This document shows, piece by piece, positions 8,312 to 18,455 of a stretch of DNA of 64,000 nucleotides. Both the position numbers and the translations under genes were made by a program. Location: the NCBI GenBank assembly GCA_016758965.1, contig JAEPRB010000061.1, positions 62,001 to 126,000 on the forward strand, in the 5' to 3' direction. Every line of letters starts with the position of its first letter. The first letter of the stretch is position 1. This DNA comes from Circinella minor. Taxonomy: Eukaryota; Mucoromycota; Mucoromycetes; Mucorales; Lichtheimiaceae. Under the pieces are notes generated by a model. It did no database searches, was not told where the DNA came from, and saw only the letters and a program-made list of their open reading frames with translations.

Positions 8312-8340
8312 GGCGCCTTATCCATTTGGCCACATGCCCC
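8312..8340 (-). tRNA. tRNA-Arg-like 5' half (relic)
   Basis: On the minus strand, starting at 8340, there are 29 bases with the layout of a tRNA 5' half. They comprise an acceptor strand (GGGGCATG), the TG at positions 8-9, and a D-arm reading GCC-AAATGGATAA-GGC, then G. The D-arm/A-box matches that of eukaryotic tRNA-Arg genes closely. Past this point the sequence does not form an anticodon stem, and there is no intact B-box (GGTTCGANNCC) or complementary 3' acceptor strand. It is therefore a fragment, not a working tRNA. The LTR retrotransposon starts 11 bases upstream of its 5' end. Confidence 0.5.
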
Positions 8341-8351
8341 ACTTGTTGTAT

Positions 8352-8830
8352 TGTCGCGTCTGAAGCGGGTTTTGTTCCCAGTTCCGCGTCAGCTCCAAAT
8401 GTGACGTCGAAGCGACGATTCCAACCCAGGAATCCGGGTCGTCGCCGGGTAAATACTTCTACCTAACGTATTTATCCGTTGGTTACTTTTATTCATCACC
8501 CATCTGTTCCTCCTATATTCTTTCATACATTGTCTCCCTTATTTCCATTTATATTATTTATTATTATTACCTCCGTCGTCTCTCCCGTTTATAATATCCT
8601 TTTCCTTTTATGTTATTATGAAAGATCATCTTTATGATCTTTAATTAATTCTTTTGTGTTGTCTCGTATGGATCATATTGATCCATATTCTGTTTTTAAT
8701 TTATTTATTTTTGATTTTCATTATTTCTTATTCTTATCAAGACAACGATCATGTCGTTTGCATAATATTATTATTTTAATAATATTATCATGTTCATTTC
8801 ATATTTGGAAATATTATTTTTATTTTGTTT
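8352..8830 (+). repeat. 5' LTR, truncated at its 3' side
   Basis: Begins TGTCGCGTCTGAAG and matches the right LTR from 13237 to 13765. It stops abruptly at 8830 after TATTTTGTTT, where the right copy continues for another 254 bases to its GACA terminus. The last part of the LTR and everything up to the foreign segment is lost. It contains three consecutive imperfect palindromes: GATCATCTTTATGATC near 8625, ATGGATCATATTGATCCAT near 8670, and an A/T palindrome near 8762. Confidence 0.85.
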
Positions 8831-8891
8831 AATGACAGGAAGGTACTACACCGCTAAACCTGTTTCGATTAATGTGCCATCTGACACGCAT
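8829..8891 (-). CDS. start of a second cistron overlapping the viral-like frame, cut by the LTR junction
   Basis: An ATG at 8891 lies three bases after the TAA of the protease-bearing frame (the sequence reads TTTTAAATATG). It opens a new frame of 20 codons that is closed by a TAA whose first base is foreign and whose last two bases come from the LTR. So the frame is cut by the junction, not naturally terminated. A downstream cistron beginning next to the stop of an upstream one is a common layout in RNA viruses that use stop-restart translation. The fragment is too short to identify. Confidence 0.4.
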   Translation of the reverse strand: MRVRWHINRNRFSGVVPSCH

Positions 8892-8893
8892 AT

Positions 8894-10930
8894 TTAAAAC
8901 CACGCTCTCACTTTACTTCCGAACGAAGTAAACACCAGACTCTTCTTTGTAGGATTCTTACGATCTTCCGTCACGGCTTGAACTAATCCTAACGGTTCGA
9001 GACCATCGCATGATACTACCAAAGATCCGCTCATTCCCAAATCAACCTCACAATCTGAAACAATGCCTCTACCCGATAATCCATCGTACACTGCAGTCCC
9101 TCGCGTCGAAAAGACCTTCACAAAATGATCGCTACTGTCCGTCATGACTGACACGATCTTGACTGACTCGACCCGCGAACATTCTCTCGAAGTCGCACCC
9201 TTGTAATCATCGTACGGCACTCGATCAGGAACGCAAATATACATGTCACCGCGAACATCCTCATGAACTACTCGAAAATTGAATCGGACACCCTCGATGT
9301 TTTCAGCCTCAAATCCCGGCAGATCGTGCAACGACACCGATCCAAACGCACTGTGATCGTCGATCAACGCATGAACAATATGTCGAGGCACGAATAAATA
9401 AGTGGACATGAAACCAAAACCTCTGACTACTTCACCATTCCGAAGCGTCTTCGATATTCGAAAAATATTGACACCGAAATACGCGTCGCACATCTTATCA
9501 AATTTCCAAACACCTTCATCTGACAAACACACAGGAAACAGAGGTTGTTTTATCATGTCTAGCCAACTGCTCAAACGACTTATTCGACTCGCAGTACTAA
9601 CAGACTTGACAGGCACCATGATCAAGTTCTTTGGTCTTAGAAATTTCGCGTAAAATTCCGACATTAGCGCCAATTCAGCGCTACAATATTCGAATGTTTT
9701 ACAAGCCTGTTCGTAAGTTCTTCGTTTTCGATTGAACGGAAAATAGAATTTACCTTCGCGATTATCGTTGTTAGATTCGATGACGACACTTGCCACTGTC
9801 ATTTTTTGTGACAGAGTATTCCAGACCTTCACAAAATCATCGAAAGCCTTAAGCGACGCATCCATCGGTCCCGAGTAAAATCGCAGAGGATCTTCAATGG
9901 ACGCTTTCACTCGACTCTCTTGTTTCCCGTCAGCAGTCCAGTAATTCTCAGTTGCGCTCGTTGACAATAGCGGCGAATAGCATCGGAACGTATCTAAAGA
10001 CGACATGAACATCTCGCGCAATCTTCGACCATCGAGCGACGGACACCTCTTGACTGAATAAATGTCTCTGTAACCCGGAGCATCGCCATATAAAGTCATA
10101 AAAGGTATACACATATTCTCAGATAAAACCATCGAATGCGACAACGCTTCAAGAACATAACGATTGAGAACCCTATACGATAAGTCGATACCCGAAAAAC
10201 CTCCTTCAATGAAAGAAGCCCCTCGCGACGTCACGACTGTCGACAAACTTGGAACTTCCGTGGTCGAATGTGCATCGTAACGTACGACCTTCAAATCGTC
10301 AGCACGATCTCTCCAACTCACATCTCTGATCTTCTGAAGTGCCGCAGTACCGCAAGAAGCCGTCGTCGAAGTATCAACTGACGCTTCGTTAGAATCGTGA
10401 TAAACGGTCGTCGTCGGCTCGGGTAGTTTGAAACTACTGGACGTGAATACATTATGCGTCGATTTGCTAACGCCTCTCTTGTCATGTTCAATTTCGTCTC
10501 TGAGATTCGAACGTAAAGGTTTTGCTTCCATGTGTTCAACACGTCGTTCGTGATTCGATGTATTCTGAGCTTGATCGACCGGAACCTCAAAGACGTCATT
10601 CATCGTCCCGAGTCGCGGCACGCTGATGGGAGGTTTTTGTACAGTGGGATCGAACACCGCGCAAACTAGACGATTGTACTCCGTAACATTTCGAATGGGG
10701 AATTTGTCGTGATAATGATAAGCGAATGACGGTTTCTCAAAATCGACATGAACATCATGATTCATCGAAATTTCCCATGAAACGTTGACCGACATAGAAT
10801 CACCATACCAAAAAAGATGTCGGGCATTTTTAATGAACCTATGAATTTTACCCTCGTCATTTATGAATTCCGAAACAACAGAAGACACAAATTTTGCATT
10901 GAGAAGTTTACTTGCTCGCTCTTTCGAATA
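8894..10930 (-). CDS. RNA-virus-like polyprotein fragment with C-terminal chymotrypsin-like serine protease
   Basis: One uninterrupted frame of about 680 codons. It is open at its 5' end where it meets pol sequence near 10930; the first possible ATG (10954) lies in antisense pol and is fortuitous. The last 170 residues look like a trypsin-fold protease. His is in VPRHIVHAL (about residue 525, counted from that ATG), a candidate Asp in RGDMYICVPD (about 570), and the nucleophile Ser in LGMSGSLVV (about 642), with a downstream GLV strand. This spacing fits viral 3C-like/P1-like serine proteases. The upstream 500 residues have no transmembrane segments or domain I recognise; a Ser/Thr/basic stretch lies around residues 120-240. 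Codon use is much more GC-rich than in any neighbour, there are no introns, and the segment is bounded exactly by retrotransposon sequence. I infer a piece of a non-retroviral RNA virus, probably of fungi. No polymerase is present, so the virus family is open. A captured cellular protease gene is the alternative. Confidence 0.6.
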   Translation of the reverse strand, partial: YSKERASKLLNAKFVSSVVSEFINDEGKIHRFIKNARHLFWYGDSMSVNVSWEISMNHDVHVDFEKPSFAYHYHDKFPIRNVTEYNRLVCAVFDPTVQKPPISVPRLGTMNDVFEVPVDQAQNTSNHERRVEHMEAKPLRSNLRDEIEHDKRGVSKSTHNVFTSSSFKLPEPTTTVYHDSNEASVDTSTTASCGTAALQKIRDVSWRDRADDLKVVRYDAHSTTEVPSLSTVVTSRGASFIEGGFSGIDLSYRVLNRYVLEALSHSMVLSENMCIPFMTLYGDAPGYRDIYSVKRCPSLDGRRLREMFMSSLDTFRCYSPLLSTSATENYWTADGKQESRVKASIEDPLRFYSGPMDASLKAFDDFVKVWNTLSQKMTVASVVIESNNDNREGKFYFPFNRKRRTYEQACKTFEYCSAELALMSEFYAKFLRPKNLIMVPVKSVSTASRISRLSSWLDMIKQPLFPVCLSDEGVWKFDKMCDAYFGVNIFRISKTLRNGEVVRGFGFMSTYLFVPRHIVHALIDDHSAFGSVSLHDLPGFEAENIEGVRFNFRVVHEDVRGDMYICVPDRVPYDDYKGATSRECSRVESVKIVSVMTDSSDHFVKVFSTRGTAVYDGLSGRGIVSDCEVDLGMSGSLVVSCDGLEPLGLVQAVTEDRKNPTKKSLVFTSFGSKVRAWF

Positions 10931-13351
10931 CTGTGGGATAAACATAAAGAGCATGTAAAAATGGTGTTAGATAAATTACGTGATAATGAACTGTATGCAA
11001 ATTATAAAAAGTGCGAATTTGGTAAAGAAGAAATTACCTTCTTGGGTTTCCGTGTCTCCGCAGCCGGTATCCTTCCTGCATCCGATAAGGTCAAGGCCAT
11101 CCAAGAATGGAAACCACTTAATAATGTTCAAGAAGTACGTCAGTTCATCGGTTTAGCCCAGCATTTTAGACGGTTCATTCCTAACTTCGCTAGCATGGCT
11201 GCTCCTTTGACTGATCTGACTCGTGGTACTGGCCCAAAGAAGCGTAAAATCCAATGGACTGAGGAATGTCAAAGAAGTTTTGATCTGATAAAAGAAAAAT
11301 TAATTCAAGCTCCAGTGTTGCAAGCTCCTGACCCGAAAAGACCATATCGTGTAGAAGTGGATGCATCTGATGTCGGTGTTGGTGCCGTATTACTACAAGA
11401 AGGAGACGATAAACAGTGGCATCCATTAGCATATGAATCAAGGAAATTGTCATCAGCAGAACGTAATTATCCTACGCAAGAAAGAGAACTTTTAGCAATA
11501 TTACATGCATTACGTACCTGGCGTTGTTTTCTCGAAGGTAGTCAATATGAAGTTCGTTCGGATCATCATCCGTTGAAATATTTACGTTCTCAGTCCAAGT
11601 ATACTCCTCGGCTGGTCCGATGGATGAACGAACTAGAGTTATATGATCCGACGGTAATTTCTTACCAACCTGGAAAAACCATGCATGTTCCCGATGCTTT
11701 GTCTCGTCACGATTATTCTGGTGCTCCTGGTAAAGATACAATGGAACCACAATTTTTGTATGCGGTGTCACCCCAATCGATTCCACCCGAGCATCGTAAT
11801 GATTGGCCTAGCTATTATGTGGATCGTCCATTTGATTTGCCCGAAACTGTTGTCAACTTTTTGGATCAAGAAAAAGAACATTTCGTGGTAAAGGATAAAA
11901 AGGTGTACCGATTAATTAAACTGAAACATGAAGATGGAACCGAAGAAATAAAAGAAGTACGATTTTTACCCTTTGTTCAACGCGCCGATAAGGTAAACTC
12001 GTTTCATGAGGCTTTTGGTCATTCAGGCTCTGCTACTCTTTTTGATTTGCTTCGTTTCCGTGTATGGTGGCCGTCAATGAAGGCTGATATTAAGGAATGG
12101 TTACAACGTTGTCCTTCTTGTCAGGTGAATTCTCGTCGTTCTCGTGCTCACCATGATGTTATGCATCCGTTGCCTGTTCCTGGTGCTTTTGAACGTTGGC
12201 ACCTTGATTTTATTGGTGAACTTCCTAAGTCAACAAAAGGAAATCGGTGGATCTTAGTTGCCGTGGATTATGCAACAAATTATCCAATCGCGCGTGCTGT
12301 TCCTGTTGCATTGAGTAAGGCGGTTGCTGACTTCTTGTATGAAGAAATTGTTATGCATTTTTCTTGTCCGAAAGAAATTGTTACTGATCGTGGTGCAAAT
12401 TTTATGAGCAAAGTTGTTCGTTTTTATACTGAATGTATTAAAATCGCTCATCGTTTCACAAGTACTTTTCATGTAAGATCAAATTCAAAATGCGAAAGGT
12501 ATAATGGCGTCTTAAAACAAATGTTACAGAAGTATACCAATGGTGCTCTCCATATTTGGGATCAATACTTGGATGCTGCTCTTTTTGCTTGTCGGATACG
12601 CACTCATACTACTGCAAAATATAGCCCATATTATTTAACTTATGGTCGTGATCCTGTTCTTCCTGGTGATTTTTTGCGACCATATATTCCTGATCATGCT
12701 TTACAAGATCCAAGGGTGATTGCTGAATTGACCGCACAAGAATTAGAAAATTTGGATCAAGCTCGTGCTGCTGCAAAGACTAAGATGGAGGCAATCAGCC
12801 AATATGATAAGGATCGCTGGGATAAAGCATTAAATATTCGCGATTTTGATATTGGTGATTATGTGAAAATGACGCACGAAGGTCGTTATGGTCTTGAGCT
12901 GGTGTATAAAGGTCCTTATGTGGTAGTCGATAAAAATTCGGATTTTGGTACCTATCAGCTAGAAACAATTCAAGGAAAATTGTTAGATTCATGGGTACAT
13001 ATTGATCATTTGGCCAAGGTGAACTTTGACACTGAGCCTACCACTCCATGGTTTGACCCTACTGCTAGTCGTCGTGCATGGCGTAAGGCTATGCATTTAC
13101 CTGACGAAGACGGTATTGTTGACAAGGCGAAGGCGCCCTCTGTTGAACTGAACCCCGTGGTGCCCCCCTTGGTGGAGTCTGTGCATGGTCATTCCGACGA
13201 TGTTCGAGGGCGAACATCAAGCAAGGGAGGGGGTGTTGTCGCGTCTAAAGCGGGTTTTGTTCCCAGTTCCGCGTCAGCTCCAAATGTGACGTCGAAGCGA
13301 CGATTCCAACCTAGGAATCCGGGTCGTCGCCGGGTAAATACTTCTACCTAA
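10931..13351 (+). CDS. Ty3/Gypsy pol, 3' part: RT thumb, RNase H, integrase
   Basis: The frame is truncated at its 5' side; pol homology starts about WDKHKEHVKMVL (near 10933), the connection after the reverse-transcriptase palm, whose catalytic YxDD is missing. Next is FLGF ... FIPNFASMAAPL, then a Ty3-type RNase H (VEVDASDVGVGAVLLQ, ERELLAI, RSDHHPL, HVPDALSR). The integrase follows, with an HHCC zinc finger (HEAFGHSG ... CPSCQVNSRR) and a DDE core: Asp in WHLDFIG, Asp in VTDRGANF, Glu in NSKCERYNG. No chromodomain is visible at the C terminus. The frame is otherwise intact and ends 115 bases inside the right LTR, so its last 38 residues are LTR-encoded. It is non-autonomous because RT, gag and protease are gone. 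Confidence 0.9.
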   Translation: MWDKHKEHVKMVLDKLRDNELYANYKKCEFGKEEITFLGFRVSAAGILPASDKVKAIQEWKPLNNVQEVRQFIGLAQHFRRFIPNFASMAAPLTDLTRGTGPKKRKIQWTEECQRSFDLIKEKLIQAPVLQAPDPKRPYRVEVDASDVGVGAVLLQEGDDKQWHPLAYESRKLSSAERNYPTQERELLAILHALRTWRCFLEGSQYEVRSDHHPLKYLRSQSKYTPRLVRWMNELELYDPTVISYQPGKTMHVPDALSRHDYSGAPGKDTMEPQFLYAVSPQSIPPEHRNDWPSYYVDRPFDLPETVVNFLDQEKEHFVVKDKKVYRLIKLKHEDGTEEIKEVRFLPFVQRADKVNSFHEAFGHSGSATLFDLLRFRVWWPSMKADIKEWLQRCPSCQVNSRRSRAHHDVMHPLPVPGAFERWHLDFIGELPKSTKGNRWILVAVDYATNYPIARAVPVALSKAVADFLYEEIVMHFSCPKEIVTDRGANFMSKVVRFYTECIKIAHRFTSTFHVRSNSKCERYNGVLKQMLQKYTNGALHIWDQYLDAALFACRIRTHTTAKYSPYYLTYGRDPVLPGDFLRPYIPDHALQDPRVIAELTAQELENLDQARAAAKTKMEAISQYDKDRWDKALNIRDFDIGDYVKMTHEGRYGLELVYKGPYVVVDKNSDFGTYQLETIQGKLLDSWVHIDHLAKVNFDTEPTTPWFDPTASRRAWRKAMHLPDEDGIVDKAKAPSVELNPVVPPLVESVHGHSDDVRGRTSSKGGGVVASKAGFVPSSASAPNVTSKRRFQPRNPGRRRVNTST
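13221..13236 (+). promoter_or_regulatory. polypurine tract
   Basis: A purine run (GCAAGGGAGGGGG, then TGT) directly precedes the right LTR start at 13237. This is the position and composition of the plus-strand primer of LTR retrotransposons, and it supports the LTR boundary chosen. Confidence 0.7.
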
Positions 13352-14019
13352 CGTATTTACCCGTTGGTTACTTTTATTCATCACCCATCTGTTCCTCCTA
13401 TATTCTTTCATACATTGTCTCCCTTATTTCCATTTATATTATTTATTATTATTACCTCCGTCATCTCTCCCATTATTTCCATTTATATTATTTATTATTA
13501 TTACCTCCGTCATCTCTCCCATTTATAATATCCTTTTCCTTTTATGTTATTATGAAAGATCATCTTTATGATCTTTAATTAATTCTTTTGTGTTGTCTCG
13601 TATGGATCATATTGATCCATATTCTGTTTTTAATTTATTTATTTTTGATTTTCATTATTTCTTATTCTTATCAAGACAACGATCATGTCGTTTGCATAAT
13701 ATTATTATTTTAATAATATTATCATGTTCATATTCATATTTGGAAATATTATTTTTATTTTGTTTTTATATAAATACCATCCAAAATAATAATAATAAAA
13801 TAAGAAATCAATTAACGAATTAACAAACTATCTAATTGTCGAGTTATCTATCTAATTATCAACTAGTCTACTTGTTTCTTATTTTACCTTCCTCACCTTC
13901 TTTATTATCATTTCCCTTGTGGCATAGTTTATTGTGTTTCATCTACCGAAGAATCCTGGTTATTATTGTTAACGTTAAGGTGCGGCGATTAGTCATATAA
14001 ACTTACAACGGATCTGACA
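13237..14019 (+). repeat. 3' LTR, complete (783 bp)
   Basis: Starts TGTC directly after the polypurine tract and ends GACA directly before GTAT, the same four bases that precede the left LTR. The first 529 bases match the left LTR; the remaining 254 have no counterpart in the window because the left copy is truncated. It carries the tail of the pol frame and a 49-bp internal tandem duplication. Confidence 0.85.
13424..13520 (+). repeat. 49-bp tandem duplication inside the 3' LTR
   Basis: Two adjacent copies of a 49-bp unit (TTATTTCC ... ATCTCTCCC), present once in the left LTR. It is a private change of this LTR copy, arisen after or during the last round of replication. Confidence 0.8.
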
Positions 14020-14023
14020 GTAT

Positions 14024-16097: not shown

Positions 16098-18455
16098 TTA
16101 ATCATAGACAACCAATCCTTCGAAACTCTTGTGATAAATAGTCTTGACCATTTCCTTAAGTGGTGTCTTTTCTTCGTTCTCCTCCTCCTCCTCTTCTTCT
16201 TCTTCACCATTCTTGTTAACCACCACAGTATCATCTTTTCCTTCCACGGTTCCTTCAAAGAAGCTCTTCATTAATGCAGCTGAGAAACCAGAAATCATGG
16301 TACAACCCGAAGCATCCTTGTCCACTGGCATAGGAGCACCTTCTTCAGAATCAGGACAGTCATAGACAGGGCGTGTTTGAGCTAAATTCCACCAGACCAA
16401 CTCAGGCATCTTGTATCCAGCTTCTTCATATTTGCGCTTAATTTGTTCATAAATAGTTTCCCATTCAGAAATGCCAAATCCTTCATTAAACTCCATATCC
16501 GAAAACACAAATAATCGTTTGACCATTTCTTCTTGCTTGAGTTTATTTTCTTTAGCAATAGGTAACAACAAGTCGAGAAACACTGACAAGAAATTAGTTG
16601 AGTAACCCACAGGTGCAGAAAAGATCTTGCACACATTCTCGGATAATTTGCCGCCGACCTCAAGGTTTACCACAGTAGGGTTGTCCGAAAAAGTAATTAC
16701 TGATCCATTAAACGGAGGAGAAGCCATTTCAGCAAGTACCAACGATAATCCAACAGCTGGCCAGAGTGGAACTGGATCGCCACCATAATTACCCATCATT
16801 GAGCCAGATAAATCGCACACAGCAATAGAGCTTCCCAGCGTCTCATTACCAGGACCGGCATCTTGTTTAATTGAATCAATCAAGGTTTTCCATTGGGCAT
16901 TGACCAAGTCGGTATCCATGGCGTATACTTCCTTTAATGCTTCAGGAGACATCTTCTTGGCAAGCTTGTCATCACCTCCTACATAGCCGCCAGCAGCTCG
17001 TTGTGCGCGAATGATCAATTCATGAGGCTGTAAAGTAGCACCACTGACTGACTTTTTACCAAGAGCCACATCTTTCAAATAATTCAAGAACTCCTCCTTG
17101 GCATGAGTGAAGAAGCGAGTACTGTTGGCTTGCATACATTTGGATGGTACATGTGAGAAATCAATCTTGGTCCATTGTCCCGATGACATTTTGCATTCAG
17201 TCACATCCAATGCTTGGCGTAATGGAGATATATATGTCTTGCGATACAATTCACGAACCTTATTAATATAATGCTCTCGAGATTCATCCTTATCTTGATA
17301 AGTGGTTGGAGGATACAATAATTCGGCAATAGAAGTAGCCATCAAAGTGTGCTTGTCATGAGAATGATGAAGAGTAGGAGCCCATTTAGCAGCTAAACTG
17401 ATACCTTCAGCCATGGCATATTTGTTCTTGCTATCAGTCTTACGATTTTTTTCCAACTGTTCCAAATCAGCCTTTAATTGTGTAGCAAACAGACGAGCAA
17501 CCGTAAAATGGAGGGCACGATAACTTGGATCAGAATTCAATAGTTGGGTGACACGAACATGGCGTTTGGCTCTTTTTTGTTCCTTATCGGCTTGCTGTTT
17601 TTCCATTTGTTCTTTTTGCTTCTTTTCGGTAGCCGCATTACGTTCCGCACGTTTTTTGACTTGTTCTTCTTCTGGTAACGTCTTGAGACTCTTGTAAAAT
17701 TGTCTTGACAAATGACGATGATCTTCATAACCATTCCAAGGGCGACGTTCTTGACGAGGACAATTGAGTGCCCTGAATTTACCCTCAAGATCACCTTTAT
17801 TGGTTGGACCATTTAATTCATTACAAACATAAATCTGACAAATGTTGACAAGATCTTTCCAATAACCATGACTTTTCAAGTGAGTCTTGTCCTTATTATC
17901 TTCATTATTGGCAGACATAAGTTCCCAGTCTTGATCCTCTTTCTTGTTATTCTTTTTCTCTTTGTTGACAGAAACCACGTTGGCAGTCAGCTGTTGCAAG
18001 TTACGAATTGCCGTTTGAGGATGATGTAACAAGAGCCAACCAAAAGCTGTATAAAACTTGTCGTTTGCACTTTTTCCACGATGGATAGAGCGTGTATGCC
18101 AAATAATATGTAATGTCATATCAGGATCTTGAGTCCACGCCTTTTCAAGTAAAGAATGCACCAAATCAGCGTCCCTTGCAACACCAAGTTGATAATACAA
18201 GTCTAAACAGGTATCTTCGGTAGTCTTCAAAGCGTTTGCATTATTAGCAGTTTTTTTCAAGTTGCCGATACGTTGCAAAGCGTTCATAAACTTGTTTTCA
18301 CTCTTTTCCGGAGCACCTTCCGAAGTAGGCGACGCGATCTTGAGGTCCTCAAGTGATAAAGGTTTGGATAGAGCAGCAACTTCAGCTTCAAGAGCAGTGG
18401 CATCATGCAACGAGGCAAAATAGGGCAAGGAAGCATTGAAAGTATGGAAAGACAT
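16098..18455 (-). CDS. DUF2828 family protein with vWA-like domain
   Basis: Intronless 785-residue protein. The N-terminal two-thirds is helical and holds a highly charged Lys/Glu/Gln segment around residues 265-300, probably coiled coil. From about residue 540 it has a von Willebrand A-like fold with the MIDAS-type motif VCDLSGSM. After that come ITFSDNP, a long helical part, and FVFSDMEFNEGF, then ELVWWNLAQT. This series is diagnostic of the DUF2828 family (related to the vWA part of TROVE/Ro proteins). A run of Glu residues lies near residue 760. Members occur in fungi, plants and slime moulds; their biochemical role is not established. The ATG at 18455 is preceded by an A-rich leader and is the first in frame. 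The gene is divergent from the membrane-protein gene. Confidence 0.85.
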   Translation of the reverse strand: MSFHTFNASLPYFASLHDATALEAEVAALSKPLSLEDLKIASPTSEGAPEKSENKFMNALQRIGNLKKTANNANALKTTEDTCLDLYYQLGVARDADLVHSLLEKAWTQDPDMTLHIIWHTRSIHRGKSANDKFYTAFGWLLLHHPQTAIRNLQQLTANVVSVNKEKKNNKKEDQDWELMSANNEDNKDKTHLKSHGYWKDLVNICQIYVCNELNGPTNKGDLEGKFRALNCPRQERRPWNGYEDHRHLSRQFYKSLKTLPEEEQVKKRAERNAATEKKQKEQMEKQQADKEQKRAKRHVRVTQLLNSDPSYRALHFTVARLFATQLKADLEQLEKNRKTDSKNKYAMAEGISLAAKWAPTLHHSHDKHTLMATSIAELLYPPTTYQDKDESREHYINKVRELYRKTYISPLRQALDVTECKMSSGQWTKIDFSHVPSKCMQANSTRFFTHAKEEFLNYLKDVALGKKSVSGATLQPHELIIRAQRAAGGYVGGDDKLAKKMSPEALKEVYAMDTDLVNAQWKTLIDSIKQDAGPGNETLGSSIAVCDLSGSMMGNYGGDPVPLWPAVGLSLVLAEMASPPFNGSVITFSDNPTVVNLEVGGKLSENVCKIFSAPVGYSTNFLSVFLDLLLPIAKENKLKQEEMVKRLFVFSDMEFNEGFGISEWETIYEQIKRKYEEAGYKMPELVWWNLAQTRPVYDCPDSEEGAPMPVDKDASGCTMISGFSAALMKSFFEGTVEGKDDTVVVNKNGEEEEEEEEENEEKTPLKEMVKTIYHKSFEGLVVYD

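Follow-up and report, generated by a model that had tools for sequence, protein, structure and literature searches.

Anatomy of the locus

The window, meaning the whole 64,000-nucleotide stretch of Circinella minor DNA that was analysed, contains a Ty3/gypsy retrotransposon in which a long open reading frame, antisense to the element, lies between the left LTR and what remains of pol (Table 1). As read from the sequence, this is one gypsy insertion in which a single internal stretch, beginning in U3, taking in gag and protease and ending in the middle of RT, has been swapped for about 2,099 bp of other DNA.

Table 1. Features of the disrupted gypsy element and its insert, in window positions
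Feature	Position	Strand	Basis
Truncated tRNA-like target: exact match to the opening 28 nt of the tRNA-Arg gene beside gypsy copy L014	8312..8339	-	
Target-site duplication GTAT, left copy	8348..8351	.	LTR starts TGTCGCGTCT in other copies
Left LTR of the Ty3/gypsy element, cut off in U3 a few bases short of the TATA box	8352..8830	+	
Foreign insert, probably cDNA of an RNA virus, in antisense to the gypsy element	8831..10929	-	Locus alignment and codon usage
63 nt past the stop codon: probable 3' untranslated end, less likely the start of a second ORF	8831..8893	-	
686-codon ORF, N-terminally truncated by the junction	8894..10954	-	ORF list and locus comparison
Serine-protease-like region, about residues 500-686, with H525, D570 and S642 (GMSGS)	8897..9457	-	Motif only, no profile match
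Remaining gypsy pol: end of RT, RNase H, integrase	10930..13351	+	Profile matches and locus comparison
Right LTR, complete (TGTC...GACA), with a tandem duplication of about 50 bp	13237..14019	+	
Target-site duplication GTAT, right copy	14020..14023	.	Directly after the right LTR

The junctions were defined by comparing the window with 37 other loci. On the left, the matches of 17 of these loci (16 places, L020 and L029 overlapping) end exactly at 8830; L006 extends to 8833, L016 stops at 8797 where its contig ends, and some partial copies end earlier. On the right, all four loci whose match reaches the edge of the insert start at 10930, while the match of L025 starts at 11157 and those of more distant copies start further in. 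A 1-nt difference at this edge (ACT-GTGGG vs ACTCGTGGG) means that gypsy sequence resumes at either 10930 or 10933. The original prediction that Ty3/Gypsy sequence bounds the segment on both sides to the base is thus borne out as read from the assembly, where non-element sequence abuts LTR element sequence precisely at both edges, with the 1-nt ambiguity on the right.

What the insert replaces is 2,685 bp of the element, from late U3 to mid-RT. The two breakpoints lie 2,685 bp apart in both C597 and C420, copies that retain both points (neither is complete as seen), and this equal spacing indicates a single replaced block. The window copy accordingly has no gag, no protease and no first half of RT; in three other gypsy copies RT continues upstream at the point where the insert's right breakpoint lies. 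The LTR of the element spans TGTCGCGTCT to GATCTGACA, with termini as in other copies, and the intact outer LTR ends together with the GTAT duplication imply that the element went in as one unit. Repeats of 4 bp also flank L003 (TATT) and L005 (TTGT). The locus is probably inert now, as it has lost gag, protease and the TATA box of its left LTR.

Like Ty3, the gypsy element seems to favour tRNA genes as targets. ARAGORN called no tRNA in the window. Among 20 scanned loci of the gypsy family (two of them the window's own copy) it called one in 11, and in 10 of these 11 no more than about 15 bp separate the tRNA from an LTR end. The loci concerned are L004, L005, L008, L009, L013, L014, L015, L017, L019 and L020, together with window positions 8312-8351.

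A foreign, single-copy reading frame

The insert, from 8831 to about 10930, is present once in the 46.6-Mb genome (619 contigs) by protein-level comparison. Its intronless frame, originally put at about 680 codons in a 2.1-kb segment, proves to have 686, of which 677 lie inside the insert, stop-free and antisense to the element; the first 8-9 codons, 25 nt at 10930-10954, come from gypsy RT read in antisense. Over 300 mononucleotide shuffles of the insert, stop-free runs in the six frames reached at most 196 codons, against the 677 observed. The insert has a GC content of 44.4%. To its right the gypsy part and LTR have 38.6%, while the left LTR has 31.9% and the 5-kb flanks 31-32%; the segment is richer in G+C than its surroundings, as first remarked, though the margin over the gypsy body is modest.

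Codon usage also sets the frame apart. NCG codons make up 71 of its 154 NCN codons, compared with 55/699 in nine host ORFs (Fisher p = 5e-27) and 18/170 in gypsy (p = 7e-13). The excess is even over the four quarters of the frame (15/34, 26/54, 13/32 and 17/34), which favours one origin for the whole. The CpG observed/expected ratio is 1.64 in the insert and 0.79 in eleven host ORFs pooled (0.51-1.31 singly), and under a host codon model the mean log-likelihood per codon is -1.31 for the insert, while host ORFs, each left out once and then scored, give -0.83 to -1.05. The host baseline here consists of mechanical ORFs of the window rather than confirmed genes; the NCG test used nine of the eleven, two hand-trimmed ones being left out. 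The insert is foreign, single-copy, not found in other gypsy copies and unlike host ORFs in its codons, and this much is well supported.

Three smaller features of the neighbourhood may be recorded. An ATG on the minus strand at 8889-8891, 2 nt past the stop codon, opens a frame of 20 codons to the edge of the insert; this may be a second ORF reached by stop-restart, or a chance occurrence. The NCBI gene model INT45_001748 (P0001) of Circinella minor covers the locus and is identical to the ORF where it follows it, beginning at ORF residue 54 and tracking the ORF to residue 682. The model looks wrong, because its last 55 residues leave the ORF for antisense LTR and flank. Further along, a 785-codon ORF on the minus strand at 16098-18455 has a GC content that is high for its surroundings, at about 36-45% in steps of 500 bases; it is possibly a host gene that includes a VWA/TROVE-like part.

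Age of the insertion and upkeep of the frame

The LTRs are nearly identical, as had been predicted: 5 of 480 sites differ, apart from one 1-nt indel and the tandem duplication of about 50 bp in the right LTR. Among 20 aligned rows, which represent 19 places and include one that is much diverged, the left LTR carries the majority base at 4 of the 5 differing sites. The unit motif of the duplication (window 13415-13520) occurs once in 15 of the 20 other aligned LTR rows, is absent from 5, and occurs more than once in none.

The original prediction held that the event was recent or that the frame was maintained. In a neutral simulation (substitutions only, 1,500 runs per divergence) the frame was still open in 63% of copies at 0.5% divergence, which is about half the LTR divergence and so the figure per copy, in 36% at 1%, in 14% at 2% and in 7% at 3%. 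The frame is indeed open over its 677 codons, but selection is not needed to keep it so, because most neutral copies stay open at LTR-like divergence. That the ORF is a domesticated viral gene under selection, a reading to which the intact frame lends itself, is for the same reason very improbable.

The protease-like region and searches for relatives

The C-terminal chymotrypsin-like serine protease of the original prediction is retained as a motif: His, Asp and GxSG stand in the right order, with H-D and D-S spacings of 45 and 72, and the ORF ends 44 residues past S642. Three GxSG strings occur in the ORF protein. The triad pattern was found in 0 of 200,000 shuffles, a figure that carries little weight, the pattern having been written after the sequence was seen. 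Neither a Walker A nor a DExH string occurs in the ORF as it stands, truncated on its N-terminal side. Profile searches and structure prediction had been proposed as checks. The ORF has no profile match in Pfam, NCBIfam or PHROGs, and the two AlphaFold single-sequence models, with mean pLDDT of 32.8 and 31.5, are unusable.

Three protein searches, which compared candidates of about 377-1199 aa with shared 5-residue words (one scored only the 7,998 sharing most words), found no homologue and matched only the NCBI model of the locus itself; an ORF that took up the whole of a 3.8-kb segment may fall outside this candidate range. Sequences of solved structures gave three chance-level matches only (best E 0.67), and tblastn gave none among phage and plasmid records. 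Peptide-pattern scans matched 0, 2, 4 and 0 stretches in IMG/VR and 5 in prokaryote genomes, none of them a relative by tblastn. A profile search of the genome with three viral RdRp families and one methyltransferase family found no second virus fragment (a positive control was obtained for one of the four, in one genome).

Origin of the insert

We consider it likely, though unproven, that the insert derives from an RNA virus. The inference is drawn from the serine-protease-like triad, the compact frame and the antisense capture, no homologue having been found. In the original prediction the segment was an endogenous mycovirus fragment; that it is foreign, single-copy and set base-precisely in an LTR element stands, while its RNA-virus origin is probable rather than proven. 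Against capture of an RNA virus are the lack of a match in sequence or structure to any virus in these searches and the lack of a polymerase in the insert, together with the negative profile searches of the genome for viral polymerases and a viral methyltransferase. Foreign DNA of another kind (a DNA virus, another fungus or microbe, an unknown mobile element) could have been caught in the gypsy element instead, as its composition is foreign without pointing to a source and no viral homologue was found. The CpG excess of 1.64 may be counted on the same side; to our knowledge it is no marker of RNA viruses. We regard such an origin as distinctly unlikely, since phage and plasmid records gave no match and prokaryote genomes none that was confirmed, and since the triad with a stop soon after it, the intronless frame and the short 3' tail fit a segment of an RNA virus. 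That the frame is a cellular gene, or one that normally belongs to the gypsy family, is scarcely credible despite the existence of an NCBI model at the locus: the sequence is single-copy, three other gypsy copies have RT at the same place, the codons are unlike those of host or gypsy, the model itself is faulty, and the protein searches, over candidates of the lengths given above, found no orthologue. A gene of the gypsy family was rejected on the absence of the insert frame from other copies of the element.

If the insert is viral, a tentative possibility is a virus of the virga/vivi-like kind, and specifically a third segment with helicase and chymotrypsin-like protease in one ORF. These mycoviruses are plus-strand and segmented, and both FaVvV1 and AfVlV1 have a chymotrypsin-type serine protease, the third segment of AfVlV1, BED98334.1, joining it to an SF2 helicase in a single ORF (PMC12282112). 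Poly(A) tails are given for RmVV1 and FaVvV1 in their reports (PMC11351042; PMC12282112). PMC11351042 describes RmVV1 RNA3 as most similar to AfVlV1 and to the C. minor protein KAG2223442.1 (22.8%), and names a DEXDc helicase there, not a protease. KAG2223442.1 is possibly the protein of our ORF (INT45_001748), but could equally belong to another C. minor locus, with a helicase. DEAD and Helicase_C searches of the genome gave at least 40 and 103 matches (36 of 81 DEAD candidates scored), and the codon signature of the insert is absent from the longest frames of 16 helicase regions chosen by eye, where NCG counts run from 0/9 to 8/38. Beyond that one line in PMC11351042, which may concern it, literature searches for the species or the locus found no published work on the locus. 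The original suggestion of an undescribed virus may be too strong, as the published BLAST match hints at virga/vivi-like kinship. By analogy, the look of the insert (a middle region, a C-terminal protease, a stop and a short 3' end) would fit a 5'-truncated segment of the AfVlV1 type.

The triad spacing of FaVvV1 VP3 is 43/75 (PMC12282112), near that of our ORF, a likeness generic to the fold and so weak. Vivivirid VP3 has further domains after the protease, reaching in FaVvV1 up to 380 residues past the catalytic Ser and including a second protease-like and an RNase III-like domain in the same ORF (PMC12282112); these are absent here, where 44 residues follow the Ser. The sobemo-like HuSRV1 shares a serine protease with GxSG, but its spacing of 37/68 (PMC6722724) is further from 45/72. 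A sobemo/barnavirus polyprotein (TM, protease HX36DX62TXXGXSG, VPg with WAD) was tried and rejected: the spacing differs, V stands for T, there is no WAD, and the ORF ends 44 residues after the Ser. The remaining ORF has no strong hydrophobic stretch (best 19-residue mean 1.13), and a TM segment could have lain in the lost N-terminus.

Non-retroviral integrated RNA viruses of fungi likewise consist of open frames derived from RNA viruses in a fungal genome; those described by Taylor and Bruenn in 2009 (PMC2805616) and the Lipomyces element (PMC7290986) have recognisable viral relatives and some are transcribed or under purifying selection, whereas no relative of the present insert was found. 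Elements of this kind sometimes adjoin transposable elements (PMC7290986). A search of the literature by title and the beginning of the abstract, mostly outside subscription journals, found no chimera of a fungal LTR element and an RNA virus.

Route of capture

Geuking and colleagues reportedly described in 2009 a recombination of an IAP retrotransposon with LCMV, in which the reverse transcriptase of an LTR retrotransposon joined sequence of an exogenous RNA virus to the element. The present case differs in that the element is a fungal Ty3/gypsy, the foreign piece is internal and antisense, between U3 and RT, and both the outer LTR ends and the target duplication are present.

It is quite plausible, if somewhat short of probable, that the gypsy reverse transcriptase copied the 3' portion of a plus-strand mycovirus RNA segment with a poly(A) tail and that the resulting insert was integrated together with the element. 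The plus-strand DNA of retroelements begins at the 5' end of U3. It would here have stalled within U3 at a T-rich 3' end, which would have paired with the viral poly(A) tail and been extended on the viral RNA, giving antisense viral cDNA fused to U3. The strand would then have returned to the gypsy minus-strand DNA in RT and run on to the 3' LTR, and integrase would have placed the chimera beside the tRNA-like target, giving the GTAT duplication. We hold this course of stalling, poly(A) priming, return and integration to be conceivable, a little less than an even bet. The left junction does fall where the sequence is rich in T (ATTTTTATTTTGTTT), immediately ahead of the TATA box, and from there the insert reads away as the complement of the coding strand with 63 nt before the stop is reached, the order expected if priming took place at a poly(A) end. 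The viral 3' end would then lie at 8831, and the overlap with the tail, in a region rich in T, comes to three A/T pairs at the most. The same product would result from DNA repair, or if the minus strand had jumped onto viral negative-strand RNA.

Capture during reverse transcription has one main rival, in which a break in an older gypsy copy was repaired. Viral cDNA would have been caught later, when end joining used it to fill a double-strand break in a resident copy that had lost 2.7 kb there. One deletion and one filler account for the whole anatomy, the 1-nt loss and the short ACT/GTGGG match at the right edge resemble end joining, and the LTR differences, with the left LTR so often on the majority base, resemble ordinary later changes. 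We nevertheless find it somewhat unlikely, since it requires a separate reverse transcription and leaves unexplained why the break in U3 should fall at a T-rich site adjoining the probable viral 3' end. Capture during reverse transcription in its most specific form, in which plus-strand strong-stop DNA was primed on the poly(A) of a segmented mycovirus and integrase inserted the antisense chimera beside a tRNA target, leaving the fossil of a lineage not yet isolated from Circinella, is unlikely as a whole.

Significance

The locus is most likely a chimera of an RNA virus and an LTR retrotransposon, of a kind already known, with junctions that are unusually clear. Endogenous RNA virus fragments often bear no marks of their route of entry. 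Here the sequence shows both junctions, the two outer LTR ends and the target duplication, which makes rival routes of capture testable. If the virga/vivi lead is true, the insert would be a record of a virga/vivi-like virus infecting a mucoralean fungus; if priming at the poly(A) tail is true, it would represent a route of RNA virus endogenisation distinct from minus-strand template switching.
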